This document shows, piece after piece, positions 547-51,621 of a DNA stretch of 64,000 nucleotides. Within the stretch, counting starts at the first letter, position 1; each line of letters begins with the position of its first letter. The notes below the pieces were generated by a model that was not told the DNA's origin, searched no databases, and saw only the letters and a list, made by a program, of their open reading frames with translations. This DNA comes from Sanghuangporus weigelae. Taxonomy: Eukaryota > Basidiomycota > Agaricomycetes > Hymenochaetales > Hymenochaetaceae. Both the position numbers and the translations under genes were made by a program. The stretch lies in assembly GCA_033182465.1 (NCBI GenBank), contig CP137321.1, forward strand, positions 124,001 through 188,000. Reading direction: 5' to 3'.

Positions 547-2155
547 ATGGCAGCTGGGTTTCAAGCAAAGGACTTACTCAGTGTCGTGTCCTTGTTCGCG
601 AAGGTCGTTCAATCCAACGACGGACCATACCTAAGCCCATCTGAAATTTGGAGTCCGCTAGGCGACGGGCAGTAAGCCTTGAATATCCCAGACCTTTAAT
701 GCGTATCTCTTATGATCCTATTCTAGATGCTCTGATATCGCTCCGGATGACAATCTTACAGTGATGTTCAAGGATCCCCGCGAATATCTCAAGAAGTATG
801 AAAACATGCTTTCGCTCTTTCGCGGATTGACGGCGTCTCTTGAGCACGAGTACACATTGCTCAAGGAACGGCTTGACTCGGTCGTGCGATACTGCGGGAT
901 CAGTAAACTCCCAAATGAGCTCCTGATTATCGTCATGGAATATGTCGTTTCGGAGTTTCGTGATATATTCGCGTTGACACGCGTCTGCTCGCGATTCAGA
1001 TCTTTGGCTATTTCGTCCCCGAAGTTATGGGCTAACTGCGAATTAAAAATGCCTAGTCCGGCAAGGGAGGTCTCCTTGATCGCGGACATGAGCCGGGGAT
1101 TACCTTTGTCGGCTACATTGATGTCGAGCTTCACGCATGAATCCGACCTGCTGGCCACGGAGAGGATATTTTATTATCGCCATTTGCTTGAAACATTGGA
1201 TATTACGCTTGTCGATACGGATGTGGAACGTGAGCAGATGAAGCAGATCCAGCTACCGGTCCTTCGCAACCTAACTCTGACGCATACGGGGTGCTGCCCT
1301 GATGAGCCAACTTCCCAGTTCTACGAGACTTGGGAAATGCCAGAACTTCGGTGCTTGGATACAAACTTCGTTCCACCCAAAACTCTTGGCAAGACTATTA
1401 CCTCATTTACGCTTGACACCGAGTACTCCGATGATTGCCTTTCCGACTTCAACCTCCTCTTGGAGTTCCTTGCATCATGTCCCTCCCTGGAGAACCTCGA
1501 AGTCATATTTCGCCGCTTACGTGACGACGTCTATCCCGAATCAGGGGACACCATTGTGATGCGTAATCTTAAGTCGCTCCGTCTTCAAGTTACGTCAGCC
1601 AAATACTTCAGCTGGCTCGCCCGATTTCTCGAGAGATTGGTTATTGATAACGTGACCGACCTCGGCCTCAGGCTGAAGAAACTACGTCGAAGCTCGCATA
1701 ACCTCGATGTTTTGGCGAGAAGGATAACGCAGTATCAAGAAAGCGAGACGTGGGGACCTGTCATTTTGTCTCGTATCGCGAAAATTCCACACCTTCGGGA
1801 AATGAAATTGCTTATCGAGGATGATCGGATTGGCAAGGAAGGTGAAAAGGGCCCTTCCGAATACCTATCTATTTTGTCGCCGATTTCGGTGGTTCGTGAG
1901 CTTGCTCATACCTTGGAACGATTCATGTCGATAAACCCGCTGTGTCATATCCACATGTACCGGAAGAATATGCACATTCCTGGTGGATGGACGATTCTCG
2001 AAATTGATCACGCAAAGGCTTTGACGCTAGAGCAACTTTTGGTATTAATGAGCTGGACAATAACATCGTCCGGGATACTCTTCCTGCGAGACTGTCCTTC
2101 GATCACGGAGGATGAACTTCGTTCAGCTATCCCAGACTGTATAAAGGTTGGATAA
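547..2155 (+). CDS. F-box protein, subfamily A copy 1
   Basis: Two exons, 547-671 and 727-2155, give 517 residues. The frame is open through the upstream ATG (start MAAGFQAKDLL), and the 55-bp intron has GTAAGC/CTAG ends, so the ATG at 764 is probably not the true start. Residues about 101-145 (KLPNELLIIVMEYVVSEF, then VCSRFRSLA and SPKLWANCEL) form an F-box. F-box proteins are substrate receptors of SCF (Skp1-Cullin-F-box) ubiquitin ligases. The rest resembles a degenerate leucine-rich region with scattered LxxLxxL segments. The core is clearly paralogous to the loci at 34.0, 36.5 and 49.7 kb, sharing CSRF(R/K)S, the SPxxWA segment and SRGxPL. The first 100 residues are helical in appearance and are not shared with those paralogues. 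The substrate is unknown. The exon 1 start is inferred from frame and splice sites only. Confidence 0.8.
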
Positions 2156-26242: not shown

Positions 26243-29200
26243 ATGGCGTCGTCTTCGACGTCTTCGTCGCCCGCTGCAAGCTCGGGCGACCTCACAGACC
26301 TCATCGCTTCCACTGGGTCGACGACAGTTTACCCGACCGACGATGCCATCCTCAACGTCCTCCAAGCTCGCTTTCGCGCCGACATGCCATATGCCCGCAT
26401 TAGCGCATCTAATCTGGTTGTTGTCAACCCGCTCAAGACGCTGGCGAATGTGAACGAGGCAAGTGCGAAGGAATATGAGGAGCGCTGTTACAAGGAGACG
26501 AGTGTGCCCACGCCTGGCTCTCCCAGGCCGCCCCAGCCGCACCCTTATGACCTTGCGGCTAAGGTGTATTTACTCATGCGACAACGAAAGCAGTCGCAGG
26601 CAATTCTCTTCAGGTGCGTTCGCCACGCCATTTTCTTAACTTATGTGTTGTTCCCATCTTCCTTACCAATGTTTCCAGGGGAATCACGGGCTCCGGAAAA
26701 ACGGAGACCTCAAAATTACTTGTCAACCAAATTCTCCGACTCTCCGCACGCTCAAAGCGGGAACAAAAGGTGGCGGAGCAAATCAAGGCGCTGCAGATGC
26801 TGCTAGATTCATTTGGAAATGCAAAGACGCTCATTAATCCGAACGCCTCGCGGCACGGTCGTTACTTAGAGTTGCACTTCACCGAGCGCGGGCGCATCGG
26901 TTCGGCTAAGGTACTCACGTACGGGCTGGACAAGACACGTTTGACGAGACTCACACATGAGGAGCGCACGTTCCATGTCTTCTACCAAGTTCTTGCAGGA
27001 GCAACGACGGAGGAGCGTGATCGCCTGAATATGGAGGATCCTTCGGATTATGCTCTGCTTGCCTCATCAGGATGCTACCGTCTACCTGGCGGCCCGTTCA
27101 GTGATGATGCTACGGCAATGACTGAATTGCGTATGGCCATGCGTACGCTGGGCTTCAAGACAAAGCATGTGACTGCCATCTTCAACCTCCTCATCGCTAT
27201 TCTTCTACTCGGTAACCTCGAGTTCGTTGAAGGAGTCTCAAGAGAGGATACCGCGCATGTTGCGAATCCACTCGTCCTCGATCATGTGGCACGCTTGCTC
27301 GGTGTGACTTCTGAAGACCTGGCTCAGGCTCTCACGAACAAGACAAGCTACGTACGAAAGGAATTGTACACTGTCCTTCTAAGCCCGCAACAGAGTGCTA
27401 TGCAGCGCGATCAGCTCGTGCGAGACTTGTACGCCATCTTGTTCTCTTTCGTCGTGGAAACAGCGAACCACAAGCTCGCTCCCAATGCAGCAGATCCGCC
27501 GCCACCCGCGCAGATCGTCCTTCTTGACCAGGCGGGCTTCCAAACTCGTTCGCCATCGGGAACGAACTCGATTGCGCTTACGTCACATGCACCGCTGATC
27601 GCTGCTTATGGTCAGAATGGGTTCCAGGAGTTCTGCATCAACTTTGCCGATGAGCTTCTTCATTCGTATGTCGTCCGGAATACCTTCGAGGATGCGGTAG
27701 GGCACAATGCGCACCTTACGGGTGATGGTGTTTCATTACCGTCCATTGAGACCATGGACAACTCTGGATGTGTCGAGTTGCTACGTGGTGCTCAATTAAG
27801 CGAACGGGCGCACCGTAAACCTGGCGGAATACTCGGTGTTATGAACAAGACCTGCAGTGCGCTCAAGCAGGGAAAGGGAGGCGATAAGCGTGATGAGGAT
27901 ATGTTGCAGGACTTGATAACCAAGTTTGGTGTGCACGCTTCGTTTTCCACAACTCCCTCCTTAGGTGGCGCTGCGTCGGAAAAGTACACATTTGGCATCA
28001 ATCACTATGCTGGACCGTGCTCGTACGATGTGACGCAATTCACTGAGAAAGATACCGATTTGTTGGACGCTGGATTTGTTGCTTTGCTTCGAAACTCGAC
28101 CGAGTCTTTCGTATCGAAACTTGTTTCAGGCCCGAGCTTGGCGACCGAGACTCACCACCAGGATCCGACGATTGTTGTTCAGGCACAGGTGTCTTCCAGA
28201 CCGCTGCGTCATCCTACCGCTATCACTTCCGGGAGCCCCTCGCAGGATGAACCGAATCAGCTTGATCCAGCCAAGACGTACCCCATCACGACACAGCTCA
28301 ATCATACGCTTTCAGAGCTCTTCTTCGCGTTGGATCGCACTCACTTATGGTCTGTCTCGTGTATCCGACCGAATGACTCGGGTTCTCCGAACTCCTTTGA
28401 CAAGCGACGTGTGAAGGCGCAGATTAGGTCATTGTTATTGCCGGACTTCATTGCTCGATGTCGTCTGGACTATGCCGTCGACTTTGAGCAAGAGGAGTTT
28501 TGTGATCGCTATGTACCGACCATGTTAGGCGAGACTCCTTTAAGGATCCGACAATGCGTGCAAAAGAACGGGTTGAAAGAAGGGTCAGATTACGTTCTGG
28601 GTCATCGGTCTATCTTTTTGACGTACGATGCGTGGAAGCTTGTTGAAGATGGTGTGAGAGAGCAGGAGAAAGCTAGTGCGGCCGTTGGAGGTGCGGTCGA
28701 TGATGATAGTTATGTTGACGATGCGGTGACGGAGCATACGCAAGAGGCTAGCAACTTCGGTGGTGGGGACTATTTTAATGAGAGTGTGGATAACCTGTTG
28801 CTTTCAAGGTCGATGTCTGGGTTGAATGCCCTTGAGCCCAATAACGGGAGATACGGGGCCGGTGGTCTCAAATCGCCTGGCATTGAGGCAACGCCAGCTT
28901 ACACCGAGCCTGACGACGGTAGTGCTTGGGGCTCAGAGTGGGACAAGAAAGGCGGCGATCGCAGTCCTCCGCAAGAGACGCTGCCGAAAGAAGCTGGACT
29001 TGTGGTGCACAACGCCCCGAATACCGTCGAGGAGGTACCAACCAGCCGCTCGCGGCGTTTCTGGCTTATCGTCGTCACGATCTGTACATGGTGGATTCCC
29101 GACTTCGTGCTCAAGTACGTCGGTCGGATGAAGCGGCCTGATATCCGTCTTGCGTGGCGCGAAAAACTCACGATCTGCATGCTCATATTCTTCACCTGCG

Positions 29201-32200
29201 CATTCATCTTGTTCTACATCATCCTGTTTGGCAGGCTCCTCTGTCCGAACTTCGACAAGGCGTGGAACCTGGAAGAGGTTTCACAGCATTCGGGCGATAA
29301 TGATTTCTTCGTTGCGATCCAGGGACGTGTATACGACGTGACGGACTTTGTGGGTCACGATCATAGCGACATCACCGGCTCGCCGAGTAATAGTGAGGCG
29401 GTTACAGAGCAGCTCGGCGGGGCAGACATGACGCACTACTTCCCTCCGCCTCTCGCACTTGCGTGTTCCGGAGTGACGAGTGATGAAACGTTGCAGCTCC
29501 AGTACAAGAATTTCTCTGCGGTTTCACCGACTGCGGTTCATACCTCTGGCTCGTCGGCATCTGACCCGAATTCGGCGCTGGCCAATGAGAATTGGTACAC
29601 CGAGACGTTCTTGCCGCGGATCAACAGGTTCTATAAGGGTCCCGTTGTTTACGATAAAGCGGCGATAAAATCTGCGGCTGAGGATGAGAACCAAGAGAAG
29701 TGCGTGTTTCATTCGTTTTCGTTTTCTTTAGTCCTCAACGTTGAGCTTACATTCCTTTTTAGAATCTGGGCCTTCTACCATGGCAGGGTCTATGACTTGA
29801 CGGACTACCTCAACACGCTCGATGTCTTCAACAACGCGGACAACTACAAGTTCTTGGATGATGATATCGTCGATGCGTTCAAGGAGGGTGCCGGGGGCGA
29901 CATCTCGGACGCGCTTGATGAAGTGCTGGCGACTAAGGACGCTGGCACGGCTAATGCGAACATGAACTGCATACGGAACGCATTCTTTGTCGGCGAGAGT
30001 GATTTCAGGAAGTCCGCGCGCTGCAAGGTTCAGAATATCATCCTATTGGCGGCTTCTATCATTCTTGTTGTCATCATTGCGTCGAAGTGTGAGTCCCCGT
30101 ACCTTAGGAATAGGTTTGTAGCCTTGACTGATAAATTTTTGTGGTGTCACACAGTCTTTGCTGCCTTGCAGCTGTCACCGAAGCGTTATCCGGAACTCCA
30201 GGACAAATTCGTCATCTGTCAAGTTCCTTGCTACACGGAAGGTGAAGACTCCTTACGACGTACGATCGATTCGCTTGCGGCTTTGAAATACGACGACAAG
30301 CGGAAGCTCATCTTTGTCATCTGCGACGGGAACATCATTGGTAGTGGGAACGACCGTCCGACTCCTCGTATCGTGCTTGACCTTCTCGGTGTGGACCCGA
30401 AACTTGATCCCGAGCCTCTGTTGTTCAAGTCTATTGGTGAAGGATCGAAACAGCTTAATTACGGGAAGGTTTACTCTGGATTGTACGAATTCGAAGGACA
30501 CGTCGTTCCGTGCGTACATTCTTTTCGTAATGGTGTTATGAAGACCTGATAATCTGAGAATTTAACAGATACATCGTAGTTGTCAAGGTTGGCAAGCCAA
30601 CTGAACGGTCAAAACCAGGCAATCGTGGCAAGCGTGATTCCCAGATTCTTGTGATGCACTACTTGAATCGCGTACACTTCGATGCGCCGATGTCTCCTCT
30701 GGAGCTTGAGATTTATCATCAGATGAGGAATGTCATTGGTATTGATCCTGCATTCTACGAGTACTTGTTCACTGTCGACGCCGACACAGTATGTCTTTCC
30801 TTTGCTCATGATTATGTTGTGGATATTAATGTGTTTTTGAACTAGTCCGTCACCCCCGACTCCCTTAACCGACTTGTTGCGTGCGCTGCTGATGACTCGA
30901 AGATTATCGGAATATGCGGAGAGACGAAGCTTGACAATGAGGAGGGCTCGTGGTGGACAATGATTCAGGTTCGTACGGACTATTCTGTTGTTCCAAATAA
31001 GCAAGTTAATCACGTCTATTAGGTGTACGAGTACTACATTTCCCACCACTTGTCGAAGGCATTTGAGAGTTTGTTCGGCTCCGTAACGTGTCTTCCAGGA
31101 TGTTTCTCGTTGTATCGCATTCGTACGGCAGACAAGGGTCGACCTATTATCATTTCGAACCGCATCATCGATGAATACTCGGATGGCAACGTCGATACGC
31201 TGCACAAGAAGAATCTGTTCTCGCTCGGTGAAGATCGATTCTTGACAACATTGCTGATCAAGCATTTCCCGACGTTCAAGCTCAAATTCAGTCCGGATGC
31301 CGTCGCTCACACCATCGCACCCGAATCGTGGACTGTCTTGCTGTCTCAGAGGCGACGGTGGATCAACTCGACGGTGCATAATTTGTGCGAGCTTATCTTT
31401 ATACCGGAGCTCTGCGGTATTTGTTGTTTCTCGATGCGTTTCGTTGTTTTCATCGATCTTTTGGGAACCATTGTGAGTGGAATCGTCTCTGCTTACAGTT
31501 CTGTGACTCATTGGTCCAAAACAACTTTGTAGATCTTGCCCGCTACTGTTGTCTATGTACGTGGTCACTCAGTCGATAGTGGTCCGAACTCATATCTTCT
31601 CTAGCTCATTTACCTCGTCGTCACTGTTGCAACCGGGTCGGGTGCAATCCCAACGATCTCTCTCATCATGATAGCTGCTGTCTACGGTCTTCAGGTGGGT
31701 ATCGATCATCGCTTCCAAGTCCTTTTGCTCACACTTCCCCTTTATTAGGCACTCATTTTTATTCTCAAACGAGAGTTCATGCTCGTCGGGTGGATGGTTG
31801 TCTATCTTCTTTCGTACGTTCAGACAGTCCATCCTCTCGGGTTTCTGTGACTTATGTTCGGTTCTAGTTACCCAGTCTACAGTTTCTTCCTTCCCATCTA
31901 TTCCTTCTGGTGCATGGATGACTTCAGCTGGGGTAACACGCGTGTTGTCGTAGGCGAGGGTAACAACAAGAAGGTCATTATGGCGGAGGATGAGAAGTTT
32001 GATGATAGTATGATCCCGCTCAAGAAGTTCAGCGGTAAGTGCTTTCATCCCGCAGGATTTTGTGTCTGCGTTCTAATAGATATTTGACGCAGAATACGAA
32101 GCTGAAGCTTGGGAGAATGGATCTCATCGTTCCGATGATACCCGCACAGGATATAACTCTGGGAGCCGCTCCAGGCAAAATGCATCTCCGTCAAGACCTG

Positions 32201-32922
32201 AATCCATCAGGAGCTATCACCAGGCGTCCCAGTCAGGAGACTATTACCGTGACACGAACCTCACTTATAACAACTCGTCGAATCCGAACCTCCGGTTACC
32301 GAATAAGCCGTCTCTCAGCAACATGTCGTACCACACAGGCGTTCAATCTCAGCATACCGGGCGAGGATCTACAGCTGGCTTCAACTCGGGAGCCCCTCAG
32401 CTCGGTCAAATGCCATTTGTTCCATTCGCTGGTGGACCTGTATCTGTCACTGGGTCTGACTACGGGGCAGGCAACTTTATGGGGCCTATGAACGCGGGTA
32501 CGAACTTCGCGACGTCGATGTATGGCATGCCCATGATGAGCACTGGGTCACAGATCGGATTCAACGCTGGGATGCAGCCACCAATGGCTCCAATGGGTAT
32601 GCAGCAACGTCCGGTATCAACGTTCTCTCTGGCAACGACGATGAATCCATTCGCTTCGGGGCCGAGTATGAATGAGAATCCGTCTGATGATGAGCTGTTC
32701 AGTGCTCTGCAGAAGTACTTGCTTACTCAGGATTTGATGACTGTTACGAAAAAGTGAGTACAATTCGGGCGGTTAAAATTTTGATGCTATTTTGCTGACT
32801 TCGCTCTTCTTTGCACCAGGTCTGCGCGTGACGCTATGGCAGCCAAATTCCCTAGAGCTGATCTATCAACACGCAAGGACTTCCTCAACCAATCTATTGA
32901 TAAGATCCTCTCGGAATCATAG
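26243..32922 (+). CDS. chitin synthase with N-terminal myosin motor domain (class V/VII type)
   Basis: Thirteen exons (26243-26613, 26679-29699, 29763-30088, 30155-30509, 30569-30788, 30846-30968, 31023-31472, 31533-31556, 31605-31694, 31749-31813, 31868-32034, 32093-32753, 32820-32922) give 1991 residues. The enzyme polymerises UDP-GlcNAc into chitin at the plasma membrane. Order: myosin-like motor (about 1-780; P-loop GITGSGKTE near 125), membrane helices around 914 and 952, a cytochrome b5-like fold ([17 protein letters not shown], about 1000), then the catalytic domain with VDADT, GEDRFLT and the signature [12 protein letters not shown] (about 1581), further helices including [13 protein letters not shown], and a C-terminal DEK-C-like domain ([13 protein letters not shown]). 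The motor's switch regions are altered (NPNASRHGR for the usual NxxSSRFG; LDQAGFQ for DxxGFE), so it may bind rather than walk on actin. Confidence 0.95.
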
Positions 32923-33995
32923 ACGTTCGGACATTCATTCGTATTTGCAACTCATGAATCATGCCTTCCCCACCCCTCTCTCATGCGAAGTTAGTAGACA
33001 CTACTTCTCTGTCGTTCGTTCTCTGCTTGCCAGCTCCTATCGACGTAATATTGCATAGCACGGTTTGTATTTACAGGACCTCTCTTACGCTCTCTTTCTC
33101 CTCTCTGCATTCTTCTCTCATCGTTCGCTCGCCCTGGACATCTCAGGCTTCACAATCGCATGTCATGGACTATGGACAACTATAACTACTGCTATTTCAA
33201 CTCCCTCCTCTCGCTCTTCTCCCATCCTTTCCTTTCTTCTTCTCTAGTGGTTTCGCCTCGATTAATAACGTCGTCCCTTTTCTTATCTCTGTGTTCGTTG
33301 GACATTAGTATATCTAGTAATGAAATGCTTTGTAGGTTCAGTATTGCGGAGGCGAGAATTGTTCATGTGTCTGCGTAACTAGCATTGTTTCCTACTTCTG
33401 GTCGTCTGAAAATACCTCAAAGCGCATGCACATTCCAGCCCATTTGCTGGTCATTGCAGTTTGGCTGAATAAGAAAGGCAGGAGAAAGGAGTGACTACAT
33501 ACAGTAAGAATACAGCAAAACCTGTGGATAAGAATATCGTTTCTCGAGATTTGTATCTGTCTCTCGACACAGCTTCCCCTTATGGATATCATCATAGAGT
33601 CAAACTAAGTCTACTAGACGATCGATCTAAAAGTTCTGTCTCGAGTTACTTATTTTCGAAAAACCAAATATTCTTATTCACAGGTTTTCTGTATTCTTAG
33701 ACACAGGTTCTACTGTAGTGCTATTTAAGTCGAACAAGACAGGTGGTAGTGGGATTGACGAACAACCAAGATGACTGGAACGCACGGTCAGGATTCAGTA
33801 CATATTACAAATCATTCGGATAGTACATCAGTGGGATATGATGGCAAGGTGAAAGATATGCAAAGCAGCAGACTATCAAAACGATATGATGTATCCCATA
33901 AAAGCCAGTGCACAGCGAGGTCGGAAGTGTCAAACAGAGTTGGTGGCCTCCCTGAGCTTATTTAAGCGAGACAGGACGTCTGTGTCACGGAAGTC
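32923..33995. other. intergenic region, convergent between chitin synthase and F-box cluster
   Basis: Very T/C-rich for the first 350 bases, the chitin synthase 3' flank. The rest shows no gene. Its last 30 bases belong to the duplicated block shared with 36.11-36.22 kb. Confidence 0.5.
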
Positions 33996-35538
33996 TTAGA
34001 AACAGAAGACACAGAGGAGTCCGTACTCACCTGAAATTTGCCTTGTAGAAAAAAGACCCTTTGACATCACTGAAACGTGAGCGTTGGGATAAGCTTCACG
34101 AATCCGGTCCTCGTCGATCTCGCGACACCATATAGCTGAAATCCTCTGTGGCTTCGACGTGCCCCTGCGCGCGTTGTGTATGATGTCGAGAAACGCTTCG
34201 GTCGATATATCTGCCATAAAGATCAAGATGTCCATGGTTTCTGGGTCACGACCACCCTGTTGGTAACTCCATGTAACAGTCATTCTCCCCAGATAAGTCC
34301 ACGTTATGAATTCTCTGAGCTGATTCGAGATGTTCCTTAGCATTGCCGCTATGAAACTATTTACGTCTGGATCGCTTTGTCGACATACAAAAATGAGCTT
34401 TTGCAGTGACAGATAAGTAGAGACTGCACAGGCAATCGCTGACGCTTGGGATTCATGTAAATAATGCTTCGGCAAAAATTTGAGCACACAGATGCGCAGG
34501 GTTGTCAGAGTACGTAGGATCAAGTGCTCCAATAGGGTGGCAATGTAAGGGAAACAATCCTTGTTCACTTTGAGTTCCATCTGTCGGAGGTTTCCCAAGG
34601 TGACCTTTCGATCCGATTGTATGCTCAGGTCTCTATTCAAGAAGACCAATTTATGAACAACGATATTAAGCGAGAGGAGGAGCGGGACCGAAGCAAGAAA
34701 GTCCAACAACCCAGAATAGGTGTCGGTCCCATTCCGTATTTCAAGATGGCAGTCCGTAATCGTGTTGGTCATCATCGGAAGAGGAACAAAGACCGTGCTC
34801 AATCGCACAAGTCGTGGCATCGGAAATTCCATATGAAAGTTCCTCCAATGATCATAGAAGTTCTGGGGTGGATCGATATGTACGTCCCAAAAATGTGCAC
34901 TGTGTCGCAGGAGCTCCTCGGCATCTGAACGTAGCTTTCCGGTCATCAAGCTCAGCCAGCCTTCTCCTTTGAATGAGACCCTAGCTCTAAGCGGAAACCC
35001 TCGACTCCGGTGAACGATTGTCGAGATTTGCTCCTCGCTTAAATCCATCGACAGCTCACATCCGGCCCAGACTGTTGGTGAGGCCGCTATCGATTTGAAT
35101 CGCGAGCAGACGAGTGCCAAATTAACAGCATCGTCGTAACTAGATACCATTTGCTCCATGATTTTCAAAAGTAATTCATCAGGAAGCTTGTGTATTCCCT
35201 GAGACGAATTCTGTGCCATCGTATCGTTGTTTCTGCACGGTTTGACCTGTAGTCGATGCGCTGAAAACAGTACGAGGTAAATCGTCGACTCCTTCTCGAT
35301 GCTGTAATCCGAGAGTGTACGACCATTCTCGAGGTGCTTTCCCTCAAAGATCAAGTAGCGTTGTTGGTCGGGCGGAATGCTACCGGAAGATCAATTTAGA
35401 GCAATAAAATACACGCGCAAAATATCTACGTACCTTGCCTTATCATGAATCTTGTTTTTAACCGTCTCGATGGAGTCGGACGATTCAACCTCAAGGATGG
35501 TCTCGCCAGTCAACGCCTTAACGAAGATCTGCGTGATT
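33996..35538 (-). CDS. ubiquitin-like domain fused to F-box protein (subfamily A copy 2), 5' end unresolved
   Basis: Two exons are clear: 35538-35434 and 35379-33996, with a 54-bp intron. Together they encode a near-canonical ubiquitin fold ([54 protein letters not shown]), then a short linker, then an F-box ([35 protein letters not shown]) and a leucine-rich tail. Lysines matching K6, K27, K29, K33, K48 and K63 are kept; K11 is Glu and one residue beside it is missing. The C-terminal LRLRGG is replaced by [10 protein letters not shown], so there is no diglycine and the module should not be cleaved or conjugated. Ubiquitin-like plus F-box occurs in animal FBXO7; a role in proteasome or SCF binding is inference. 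A further 5' exon ending at 35609 is likely, but no clean start codon was found; a TATAAAA lies on this strand near 35705. Confidence 0.8.
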
Positions 35539-36473
35539 CTGAGAGCGATAAGGAACAGAAGTCAGCCATAGCGACTCCAGAGAGGTCAATAAGACGATAG
35601 ATACTCACATCGGTGGGATCAAAAGTGATTTGAGTTTGTTGCTAAACGATGTTGGATGTGGTCTGAGGGTAAGATAGAGAATCACCACTCATGACGGGGT
35701 TTTTATACTACCGGGTGATCTCTGTTGGAAATTCTCGAGTTCACTACAACTCCTTTATTACTTCAGCGTGAAGAAAAAATCGGCGAATGCATGCATAGTA
35801 TAGAGCATGGTTCTGAGTGAAAGGATAACGAAAAACGGTCCATTATTGTAATTAAAAAACCAGGAAAAAATGTTTTTATATGTATTTCTTGGTATAGATG
35901 GTGGCAAAACAATCCGTTGGTTGGTTTATTCTTGCTCAAATATCATATATAAGCTATTCAAATCCACAATATATCATAAGAGCTTTTTCTGAAACAGAAG
36001 ATGTTGGGCTGAATTGAATTTGACAAAAGACTGCCTATGAGTGAGAAATGGGTGACCGAAAGATCGACTCGCCTCATTTGGAAAAACCTCGGACAAAAAA
36101 AAAGAACGGTCAGAATTCAATACATAGGGACAGGATGTCTGTGTCACGGAAGTCTTAGACTTAGAAACGGAAGACACAGAGGAATCCGTACTCACCTGAA
36201 AGTTGCCTGAAAAGAGCACTATCTGAAGAAGTCAACGGATAACCCCCAGTAGGCAGGAAACCCTCACAATCGCGTGAGGGAGTCTCTATTTTCTGTACAC
36301 CTTTTATACACTACCATACATGTCTCGAATACGTCCATATCTAGTTTAATCTAAATTTCAGTAGCTCCATCACAGTCGTCACGGTCTCGGATCAGCATGA
36401 ACACAAGCTCCAACAATCTGGTATCACTGAAACGTGAGCGTTGGGATAAGCTTCACGACAATTTCAGAACGCA
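35539..36473. other. spacer between two duplicated F-box genes
   Basis: Contains the probable 5' exon (to about 35609) and promoter of the ubiquitin-like/F-box gene. It also contains a copy (about 36115-36200) of the 3' flank of that gene, marking the edge of a segmental duplication. About 190-200 bp at 36230-36425 have no counterpart in the other copy and read as an insertion of unknown type. Confidence 0.55.
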
Positions 36474-38013
36474 TTATAGCTGACAGAACGCATTCAATAT
36501 AGCTGAAATCTCCCGCGGCTTCGACGTGCTCCGGCGCGCGTTATGTATGATGTCGAGAAACGCTTCGGTCGATAGATCTGCCTCACAGATCATCATGTCC
36601 ATGGTTTCTGGGTCGCGACCACCCTGTTGGTAACTCCATGTAACAGCCATTCTCCACGAAAAAAAAATCCACAATTTATAATGTCTGAGGTGATTCGAGA
36701 TGTTCATTAGCATCGCCGCTACGAAACTATTTACGGTCGTGTCTGCTGCAAAAAGATTGGAGAGATTAAGATCTGGGTTACTTTCTGCCATATAATGAAG
36801 ACATTGAGGTTTTGTAGTGACGGATAACAGAAGACTGCATGGGCAATCGCTGACGCCTGAGAATCACGTAAATATTGATCCCGAAAAATCTTGCGGAAGT
36901 AGATGTCCAGGGTGGTCAGAGTATGTGGAATCAAGTGCTCCAGTAGGGTGGCGATGTAAAGGGCACAGTCTATGTTCGCCTCGAGTTTCATCTGACGGAG
37001 ATTTCCTAAGGTAACGTTCCGATCCGATTGTATGCTCAGATCTCTTTCCAAGTAACCCTCCAGTTTAAGAACAATAATATCGAGCGAGAGGAGGAGCGGG
37101 ACTGAAGCAAGAAAATCCAACAACCCAGAATATGTGTCGGTCCCATTCCGTAGTTCAAGACGGCAATCCGTAATCGTGTTGGTCATCATCGGACGAGGAA
37201 CAAAGACCGTGTTCAATCGCACGAGTCGTGGCATCGGAAATTCCATATGAAAGTTCCTCCAATGATCATAGAAGTTCTGGGGTAGATCGATGTGTACGTC
37301 CCAAAAATGTGCACTGTGTCGCAGGATCTTCTCGGCATCTGAAGGTAGCTTTTCGGTCTCCAATCTCAGCCAGCCTTCTCCTTTGAATGAGACCCTAGCT
37401 CTAAGCGGAAACCCTCGACTCCGGTGAACGATAGTCGAGATTTGTTCCTGGCTTAAATCCATCGACAGTTCGCAACTGGCCCAGACCGTTGGCGAGGCCG
37501 CTATCGATTTGAATCGCGAGCAGGCGAGTGCCAAATTAACAGCATCGTCGTAACCAGACACCATTTGCTCCATTATTTTCAAAAGTAGCTCATCAGGAAG
37601 CTTGCGTATCCCCTGAGACGAATTCTGTGCCATCATATCGTTGTTTCTGCACGATTTGACCCCGTGGTACAGGCGCGGTGGTGTATGGATCTTGAACAGC
37701 AATTCCGTCTGAAGCTTGTCAGCTACTGGTATATGACGACGAAACTTCAGGTGGATGTTGACTCACCGTTGGCGTCGCTTGTTGGCGTCGCTTGATGGTT
37801 GATAAGAAAGAAGCACCAATGGTTTTCGCCGGCAATGCCCTTCACTTGTATGTGATTTGAGTCAGAGCTATATTCCGCTGTAACAGGCAATTGCAGTCCA
37901 CACCTAGTCATAATTGTTGCTGCGAGATCTAGCCTGGATCCCGGAGGAAAATTTGGCGCTACAATGAATATTGCTTTGATAGTCGTTTCGTCTGCGGACG
38001 GACTACAATCCAT
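36474..38013 (-). pseudogene. F-box protein, subfamily A copy 3, probably broken
   Basis: Exon 1 (38013-37767) encodes an 82-residue module (MDCSPSADETTIKAIFIVAP...) found nowhere else intact in the window. A 41-bp intron joins it in frame to exon 2 from 37725, which carries the F-box ([16 protein letters not shown]). From CRNND onward it is highly similar to the ubiquitin-like/F-box gene. The frame ends at 36731, and a second frame (36791-36474) carries the rest of the homology ([30 protein letters not shown]). An insertion of roughly 25-30 nt relative to the sister gene shifts the frame, and I found no splice pair that restores it. The C-terminal end is also scrambled. A truncated but expressed protein is possible. 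The outermost nested transposon begins only 66 bp upstream of the start codon. Confidence 0.65.
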
Positions 38014-49677: not shown

Positions 49678-50801
49678 TCAATCTCGGGACATACTTTGGA
49701 AAAAGTATACGCGAGCTTTGTCACAAAGGTGAAGCGAACTGATGATGATTTTGACCACAGTGTCCGATGATAGGCGGTTCGAGTCAATGATACTGACGTC
49801 AAGGGAGTCTGAAGAACCTCGACCGCCTCGGTGGTATCGCCAAACGACTCTTCTTGTCTGCGTACGAGAGTCTAGAGCATCCGTTTTGGGGTTGCTTGAG
49901 GGCGAGATTATATTGGAAGGGAAAACATCTGGACGTTGAGTGTCTTTCGGAGGATGTCCCATCTCAAGCTGGAGTGTCTGCAAAGAACGGAATTTGGGGA
50001 CTGCACGGGCAATTTCGCCTATTTCCAGTGCAGATTGATCTCCTCGGAAAATTGATATAGAGAGGCTCGCGAGCATGTCGAGGACTAAGCTGCCCAAAAG
50101 GCTGGCAGCGTCGGAAATGTGTTTTTCATCCACACCGAGTTCCATTTCGCGGAGGTTCCTCAACACGACTGTCTTATTTGAGCGGTTTTTAACCTCCTTG
50201 ACTTCCATTTCCATGATAGTAATCTTGAAAGAATGTAGCGCGGGGACTGAAGCGAGAAAGTCTAGCAGTTCTGATTGTGTCTCGTAGCCAGCGATTAGCT
50301 TGAGGACGCACTGAGTAACCATGTTGAATGGCATCGGTCGAGGAATAAAAGATGTTTCCAGACGTAGGAGTCGTGGCATCGGATGATCACTAAAGACGTT
50401 CCTCCACGAGTAGATAGACAGTTGGTGGTACAAATCGATATGCACTTCCTTGAAAAGCGAGCTGTGCCGAAGGACATGAGATGCGCTCGAAGGGCATTCT
50501 CCGGCACTTGATTCCCGAAACACATCCTGTATCCGAAGACTATGCTAGCTCTGAGCAGTGCTCCACGACTTTCACGGACGATGTCCTCGATGCCCACACC
50601 ACAGTCCACTGTTAGCCAGCATTTCGACCAAACTGCTGGAGAGCATACTATCGATTTGAATCGTGGACGGACGTTAGCCAGTATAATCATATCGCCATAC
50701 TTGGAGACGTAGTACTGCGCGATAATTAGAAGAACTTCATCTGGCAGTTTAGTATATATTCCATTACGTGGAATGCGTATCATCCTGTTGTCGCAGTGCA
50801 T
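49678..50801 (-). pseudogene. F-box protein, subfamily A copy 4, frameshifted
   Basis: An N-terminal frame from 50801 has the F-box (TKLPDEVLLIIAQYYVSKY, RPRFKSIVCSPAVWSKC). Homology then jumps to another frame from about 50520 ([48 protein letters not shown]), which runs to 49678. A single frameshift near 50520 explains this; no convincing intron bridges it. A possible first exon upstream (MSAENVDHDQFCAILF, about 50970-50908) resembles the N-terminal module of copy 3 but stops just before its splice donor. It is most similar in layout to the copies at 34.0 and 36.5 kb and lies on the same strand. Confidence 0.68.
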
Positions 50802-51621
50802 GATTTGGTCAGCGATAGGCGTTGGTCGCTACACAGATGGTTCGATTTTTTGCAGGCTGAGTAAAAAACATCCAGAGGTGAAGATTCACGTTGGATGCTG
50901 ACTTACAGCTCAGTTTGTGGACACGAAAAGAATCGCGCAAAATTGATCGTGATCGACATTTTCAGCTGACATCGCGAGTTAGTTTATGTAAGCACTTACT
51001 AGTAATTATCTTTGTTTGTGTTTGTTAAAACCCTTGTCTACATCATCTTGGCGATCAAGTTCAAGCTGTCTAGCACGCTACGCTGTGTAAAGCGTCAAGA
51101 CTCAGATAAGTGAGATGCTAGAATTCATAGAGGCTGGCTTACTGTTGATTTGCCGTAGTTTGGACTCTAATTGACTTCTGGCTCGTCCGGTTAGCAACGG
51201 ACTTTATGATTGCATCGACGACAAATTACTAGTTATTCGAATTACATGAACACTTGGAGATCGTGTATGGCAGTACAAAAAAGGCTGAGTAAGGAGGATT
51301 CAAGAAACGAAAGAATGAGGCTGAAGAGCAAAGAGGAAGCGGTGAAGAATGCCTTGAGAGAGTAAAGGAAAGGATATTTGACGTATACAACCGAATTTAA
51401 AAGCGTGAGGACCAAATGACGTTCAAGCAAGGCAATCCGGCAGGGCAAGGCTTAAATGCTAAGCCTTTCCGATGCACCTCTAGCGGGCACACTCTACAAA
51501 AAGAAACGAAGCGAGCCAATCAAAATTAGATGCCACGAATCTGTGTCATGAAGTATCAATGCTAGCGGATTGCCAAAAGCAATTGCCAGAAATAGCACTC
51601 GCCATCAGGATGATCAACTCA
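50802..51621. other. spacer between F-box copy 4 and a membrane-anchored protein gene
   Basis: Contains the remains of a 5' exon for the F-box gene and the 3' flank of the gene to the right. Nothing else supported. Confidence 0.45.

Follow-up and report, generated by a model that had tools for sequence, protein, structure and literature searches.

A candidate chimeric gene joining the core promoter and first repeat of polyubiquitin to an F-box gene in Sanghuangporus weigelae

A window of 64,000 nucleotides (contig C4, positions 124001-188000) from the genome of Sanghuangporus weigelae (33.87 Mb in 13 contigs) was found to contain what is, as read from its sequence, a chimeric gene formed by DNA duplication, whose 5′ part, with introns and core promoter, comes from one gene and whose body comes from another. 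In it, the polyubiquitin TATA box, leader, leader intron and truncated repeat 1 stand directly before an F-box gene. In the reading that we prefer, the copied core promoter and leader intron would now drive transcription of that gene. The 407-aa F-box protein, translated from its own AUG, would be a substrate receptor of the usual kind in an SCF ubiquitin ligase, and the ubiquitin stretch would be mainly a relic carried in the leader, hardly translated, if at all, after the change of its ATG to ACG; while the ATG was still in place, the gene may have produced a true ubiquitin-F-box fusion protein. We hold this reading, in which a captured promoter and leader drive an F-box protein and the ubiquitin part is mostly leader, with about even confidence. 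The ubiquitin part may accordingly be only a borrowed switch and not a working ubiquitin-like part.

Structure of the locus and source of its parts

It was observed that a minus-strand ORF (35390-33996) leads from ubiquitin sequence to an F-box with no intervening stop codon, and that splicing of a 54-nt GT-AG intron (35433-35380) adds the first half of ubiquitin in frame with it. In the Pfam scan, the spliced ubiquitin domain scored 71.2 bits against PF00240 (cut-off 25.4), and it matched PDB ubiquitins across residues 2-71; the F-box reached 34.3 bits against PF12937 (cut-off 24.3) and 30.1 bits against PF00646 (cut-off 20.5), and the ubiquitin and F-box models both passed their cut-offs within the ORF itself. 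An earlier note on this DNA, which described a ubiquitin-like stretch in frame with an F-box between 33996 and 35538, was therefore confirmed at the DNA level, although the homology in fact extends further upstream, past the leader intron to the TATA box at 35707. The features are as follows, in window coordinates.

35609-35707, minus strand: TATA box and leader exon 1 of the polyubiquitin copy; 7 differences in 94 aligned bases relative to the polyubiquitin locus L049; last exon base 35609
35539-35608, minus strand: leader intron of the polyubiquitin copy (GTGAGT...CTCAG); 5 differences in 74 aligned bases, which include 4 bases of the start of exon 2; splice-site sequences conserved
35434-35538, minus strand: exon 2, the first ~35 codons of ubiquitin, codon 1 being ACG (35534-35532) as against ATG in the donor
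35380-35433, minus strand: intron within the ubiquitin domain, at the site of the intron of repeat 1 in the polyubiquitin gene; 8 differences over 50 aligned bases and one 4-nt indel
35269-35379, minus strand: exon 3, ubiquitin part to codon 71 (LVL); 14 differences in 108 aligned bases and one 3-nt insertion
35220-35261, minus strand: former F-box leader, now an in-frame linker; identical to the leader of the tandem paralogue in 34 of 41 columns, and to the corresponding leader at C4:66588 in 32 of 44
33996-35219, minus strand: intact 407-aa frame of the F-box protein, opened by its own ATG (MAQNSS...); the Pfam F-box lies at 35067-35195
35165-35326, minus strand: out-of-frame AUG (35326) in strong context (AGA AUG G) with its ORF, which closes 55 nt after the F-box AUG begins
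36422-37661, minus strand: tandem F-box paralogue with an old-type leader upstream; 83% DNA identity to the F-box part of the fusion; two 1-nt indels break the frame in the compared part

The segment 35707-35269 aligned at 87% identity to the polyubiquitin gene on contig C1 (L049, 939-1368), in an alignment spanning the TATA box, the leader exon, the leader intron, and the exons and intron of repeat 1 as far as codon 71. A genome-wide DNA search with 35760-35240 returned six places, namely the query itself, three polyubiquitin repeats and two other ubiquitin genes, the last two at 70% and 67% identity. The best donor match (87%, E=2e-146) was the only one to include TATA box, leader and leader intron, and its E-value excludes a chance match. 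The donor is thus repeat 1 of the genome's own polyubiquitin gene, and the earlier suggestion of a recent fusion with a ubiquitin gene is strongly supported. Upstream of the TATA box, no match to the polyubiquitin upstream region rose above shuffles. Since the introns were retained, the segment was copied as DNA and not through mRNA, which rules out a retrocopy; the TATA box and the four splice-site sequences of both introns are kept in the fusion. An ancient ubiquitin-like (UBL) domain, or an orthologue of FBXO7, was likewise ruled out, the DNA being an 87% copy of the genome's own polyubiquitin. The comparison with FBXO7 drawn before is one of architecture only. Within the donor array, the second exons of repeats 1 and 2 (L049 1261-1384 and 1541-1664) agree in all of their 124 nt, a sign of recent gene conversion or duplication inside the array.

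The F-box part has two paralogues, the tandem copy (37661-36422) and a more distant one (C4:66588-67746), and the F-box AUG is common to all three copies. Between the two paralogues, homology of the leaders extends across about 400 nt (260 of 406 columns; score 216 against a shuffle maximum of 38). The match of the fusion leader to the tandem leader was limited to the last ~42 nt (34 of 41 columns, score 51, shuffle maximum 27), a stretch that also matched the C4:66588 paralogue (32 of 44 columns, score 37, shuffle maximum 29), while the 340 nt preceding the last 60 of the fusion leader scored 28 against the tandem leader, below the shuffle maximum of 35. With homology left only in these final ~42 nt, the promoter and most of the leader of the F-box gene must have been swapped out. 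Because the copy ends at codon 71 and the paralogues share the old leader, the residues FSAHRLQ, which had been described as replacing RLRGG, are largely former F-box leader; the loss of RLRGG stands, but its replacement by mutation is ruled out. As a separate observation, the stretch 36224-36400, just 3′ of the tandem copy, recurs at C13:472022-472196 (84%) and C5:170799-170959 (81%), and is possibly a dispersed repeat.

Translation of the ubiquitin part and selection on it

In the fusion, the first ubiquitin codon is ACG (ACG CAG ATC TTC) where the donor has ATG, so that there is no AUG-initiated MQIFVK. No in-frame AUG was found upstream of the F-box AUG (35219) in the three splice forms examined, which leaves the idea of an in-frame AUG gained by intron retention without support. 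Once the transcript is fully spliced, 115 open codons without an AUG lie upstream of the F-box AUG in its frame; counted from the ACG at 35534, which has an A at -3, the frame stays open through the F-box for 494 codons. The out-of-frame AUG at 35326 opens an ORF that extends across the F-box AUG and would be expected to hinder scanning ribosomes from reaching it. Both routes to a protein therefore face difficulty, since an obstructive AUG precedes that of the F-box and the ubiquitin frame depends on initiation at a near-cognate codon. In Cryptococcus, strong-context upstream ORFs repress translation and promote NMD, and ACG initiation is reported for the mitochondrial LeuRS (PMC7049704); in Neurospora, the N-terminal extension of cpc-1, which has no AUG, counts ACG among its near-cognate codons (PMC5487733). 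With such fungal precedents, translation of the fusion from ACG is possible.

The first alternative to the leader-relic reading follows from this. A 494-aa UBL-F-box protein would be made now from the ACG or another near-cognate codon, with an uncleavable head that could bind ubiquitin receptors or the proteasome and an F-box that could bind Skp1; we regard it as conceivable, but doubtful. It would make use of the long open frame, of the A at -3 and of the two ACG precedents, and a ribosome initiating in the ubiquitin frame would bypass the obstructive AUG at 35326. It must nevertheless accommodate the loss of the ubiquitin ATG, ACG being usually a weak start codon. The ubiquitin part differs from donor repeat 1 by 11 synonymous codon changes and 13 nonsynonymous ones, M1T among them, with one codon deleted (a Thr near residue 14) and one inserted (a Tyr between R42 and L43). 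The inserted Tyr falls in what we take to be strand 3 of ubiquitin and may disturb the fold, a point against a present-day protein. In its favour, L8, I44, V70, K48 and K63 are retained; K11 is Glu. The alignment thus bore out the earlier assignments at K11, K48 and K63. The description of a near-complete ubiquitin had missed the ACG, the Thr deletion and the Tyr insertion.

The pattern of divergence gave signals in both directions. The coding DNA (25 differences in 209) is conserved no better than the copy's own leader and introns (20 in 218; Fisher p=0.43), which argues against a translated ubiquitin part. On the other side, both coding indels are of 3 nt (noncoding indels: 3, 2 and 4), and the replacements were conservative beyond random expectation (BLOSUM62 sum 7, p 0.03-0.05). 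The presumed core positions, a list not derived from a structure, took 1 of 12 replacements where 2.4 were expected (p about 0.25). The neutral probability of an open ubiquitin frame was 0.04-0.34, given 13-24 substitutions and 1-3 expected indels, which are assumptions and not estimates.

The branch omega of the ubiquitin part depended on the reference chosen. With a single outgroup, it was 0.30 with R2 (p=0.007), and not significantly below 1 with R3 (0.32, p=0.155), L40 (0.32, p=0.257) or S27a (0.50, p=0.635); a seven-taxon tree, which left out the last codons of R4, gave 0.28 (p=0.005). The R2 and seven-taxon values, although they favour translation at face value, were discounted because the 124-nt identity of repeats 1 and 2 suggests gene conversion, which would place synonymous changes on the branch of the copy. 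Without an outgroup, omega was 0.67 (p=0.36) if donor and copy evolve at equal pace as under a clock, 0.50 (p=0.119) if the donor evolves at half the pace and 0.42 (p=0.050) at a quarter; it fell to 0.34 (p=0.016), again in favour of translation, if the donor has hardly changed. On sequence grounds, the case for the ubiquitin part being, or having been, protein is thus weak and mixed, and the data are compatible with a relic that bears weak signs of past or present translation.

The earlier proposal of a non-cleavable ubiquitin mimic built into an SCF receptor is therefore doubtful, given the ACG start, the lack of an in-frame AUG before the F-box AUG and a coding part that diverged no less than leader and introns, although translation from ACG is possible. 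Its fullest form would be a new type of SCF receptor, in which repeat 1 and the core promoter of polyubiquitin were fused in frame to an F-box gene and the uncleavable, ACG-translated product, kept at low dose by its weak start codon, used its head to dock the ligase to ubiquitin receptors or the proteasome; from the sequence, we judge this unlikely.

State of the F-box gene and splicing of the leader

Among the three F-box copies compared, only that of the fusion keeps an unbroken frame, its 407 codons being free of stops and frameshifts. Where the alignment is good, the two indels assigned to the fusion lineage have lengths divisible by three (6 and 36), and the frame acquired no stop codon (P 0.04-0.14, with 50-80 neutral substitutions assumed). 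The omega of the F-box part, calculated on 386 of 395 codons (365 of them with the C4:66588 copy) after removal of every codon that was gapped in the fusion or the tandem copy or was a stop in any row, was 0.53 for the fusion (p=0.34, indistinguishable from 1), 1.02 for the tandem copy (p=0.97) and 0.36 for the distant copy (p<0.0001). By halves, the fusion gave 0.25 (p=0.18) in codons 1-183 and 0.76 (p=0.75) thereafter. At their 3′ ends, the fusion and tandem copies showed unaligned blocks of 181 and 11 columns. The data favour a living F-box gene without proving it, and the element that remained intact is the F-box frame, the ubiquitin part not clearly so.

A second alternative is that the whole chimeric gene is decaying to a pseudogene, as the tandem copy is, so that neither domain matters now. 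The frameshifts and the omega of 1.02 in the tandem copy are in line with such decay, as are an omega in the fusion not significantly below 1, the lost ubiquitin start codon and the obstructive upstream AUG. We nevertheless think it rather improbable, since the 407-codon frame has stayed intact at a divergence that gave the tandem copy two frameshifts, and the TATA box and all four splice-site sequences are preserved.

The conserved splice sites also weigh on a third proposal, namely that the leader exon is spliced to a new acceptor at the junction (TTTTCAG, ~35261), leaving a clean short leader before the F-box AUG. The junction CCTCGTACTGTTTTCAG resembles, by eye, a pyrimidine-rich acceptor, and such skipping would remove the obstructive AUG, but it would need an intron of ~350 nt that bypasses two conserved splice pairs, when the four repeat introns of polyubiquitin measure 50-52 nt, and is very unlikely. 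As it is a sub-case of the preferred promoter-capture reading, the confidences of the two overlap.

At the other end of the gene, the 3′ ends of both tandem F-box copies (36129-36208 and 33970-34043) are conserved and contain, immediately ahead of the stop codon, CAG/GTGAGTACGG, which resembles a strong splice donor; one more exon may exist on the 3′ side.

Comparison with known systems and other F-box loci

The locus resembles the animal F-box proteins FBXO7/Nutcracker in that an N-terminal ubiquitin-like stretch and an F-box share one frame, as described for FBXO7 (PMC3814724), although the fusion is read from DNA and its UBL lacks an AUG. FBXO7 also has an FP (PI31-like) domain and a proline-rich tail, whereas in the fusion only ubiquitin-type and F-box families passed the Pfam cut-offs; when the 464-aa ORF was scanned, no FP/PI31-like domain came up at E<=1 (most matches above 0.1 are discarded by the HMMER filters). 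Unlike that of FBXO7, the ubiquitin part of the fusion is a recent, AUG-less copy of the genome's own polyubiquitin, and its origin is independent. Ubiquitin also heads a longer frame in polyubiquitin and in the ubiquitin-ribosomal protein fusions (eL40, eS31), and the fusion keeps its intron where the polyubiquitin donor has it. In contrast to all of these, it is truncated at codon 71, without Gly-Gly and without an AUG; with the Gly-Gly absent and the ubiquitin cut short, it offers no deubiquitinase cleavage site.

As to mode of formation, the locus resembles chimeric genes that arose by partial duplication, for instance in Drosophila yakuba, where the 5′ end of one gene came to stand on the body of another and regulatory elements were shuffled (PMC5460883). 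In the present case, by contrast, a ubiquitin gene on another contig served as donor and an F-box gene as acceptor, and two parts of one pathway were thereby joined. As to the leader, cpc-1 of Neurospora also has a long AUG-less in-frame leader with near-cognate codons, ACG included, and other upstream ORFs; in cpc-1, however, the extension occurs in 100 homologues and at least four near-cognate codons initiate in vitro (PMC5487733), whereas initiation at the ACG of the fusion is hypothetical. An F-box protein with the role of an SCF receptor is suggested by the F-box domain, and Skp1 binding is predicted.

Chimeric genes with shuffled regulation (PMC5460883) and the combination of UBL and F-box in FBXO7 (PMC3814724) are thus already known, and what appears new is a polyubiquitin/F-box pairing caught this early. 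In so young a chimeric gene, donor, junction and old leader are all readable, which makes the steps of domain gain traceable, from promoter capture through in-frame joining via the former leader to loss of the start codon. The case bears on the route by which UBL domains become fused to parts of ubiquitin ligases, and warns that a "UBL-F-box protein" deduced from DNA may in truth reflect the capture of a promoter. Were the ubiquitin part translated from ACG, it would be a natural linear fusion of ubiquitin to an SCF receptor.

Literature searches showed no fungal ubiquitin-F-box fusion among the titles and abstract openings listed, which is not proof of absence. Within the genome, 26 ubiquitin-family places were found, and a single one, the fusion locus, lies within 5 kb of a listed F-box-like or F-box match; the next nearest among the listed matches is 18.9 kb away. 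These lists are lower bounds, with at least 99 F-box-like places (150 of 185 candidates scored) and at least 30 F-box places. F-box genes are numerous in mushroom fungi, with 210 annotated in Flammulina filiformis, 80 of them developmentally expressed (PMC7567395).

Two more F-box family genes lie in the window (716-2155 and 49678-50807); this part of C4 holds several. Many F-box genes and a chitin synthase with a myosin head make up a gene content in keeping with a fungus. On C8, at ~2.03-2.16 Mb, pairs of F-box matches with equal scores stand ~108 kb apart (2048308/2156510 and 2029493/2137778), which suggests a large duplication on that contig. The window also contains, at 26563-30549, a chitin synthase with myosin head and cytochrome b5 domains, of which the stretch 32080-32757 is, by its resemblance, presumably the C-terminal end (26563-32757 in all).
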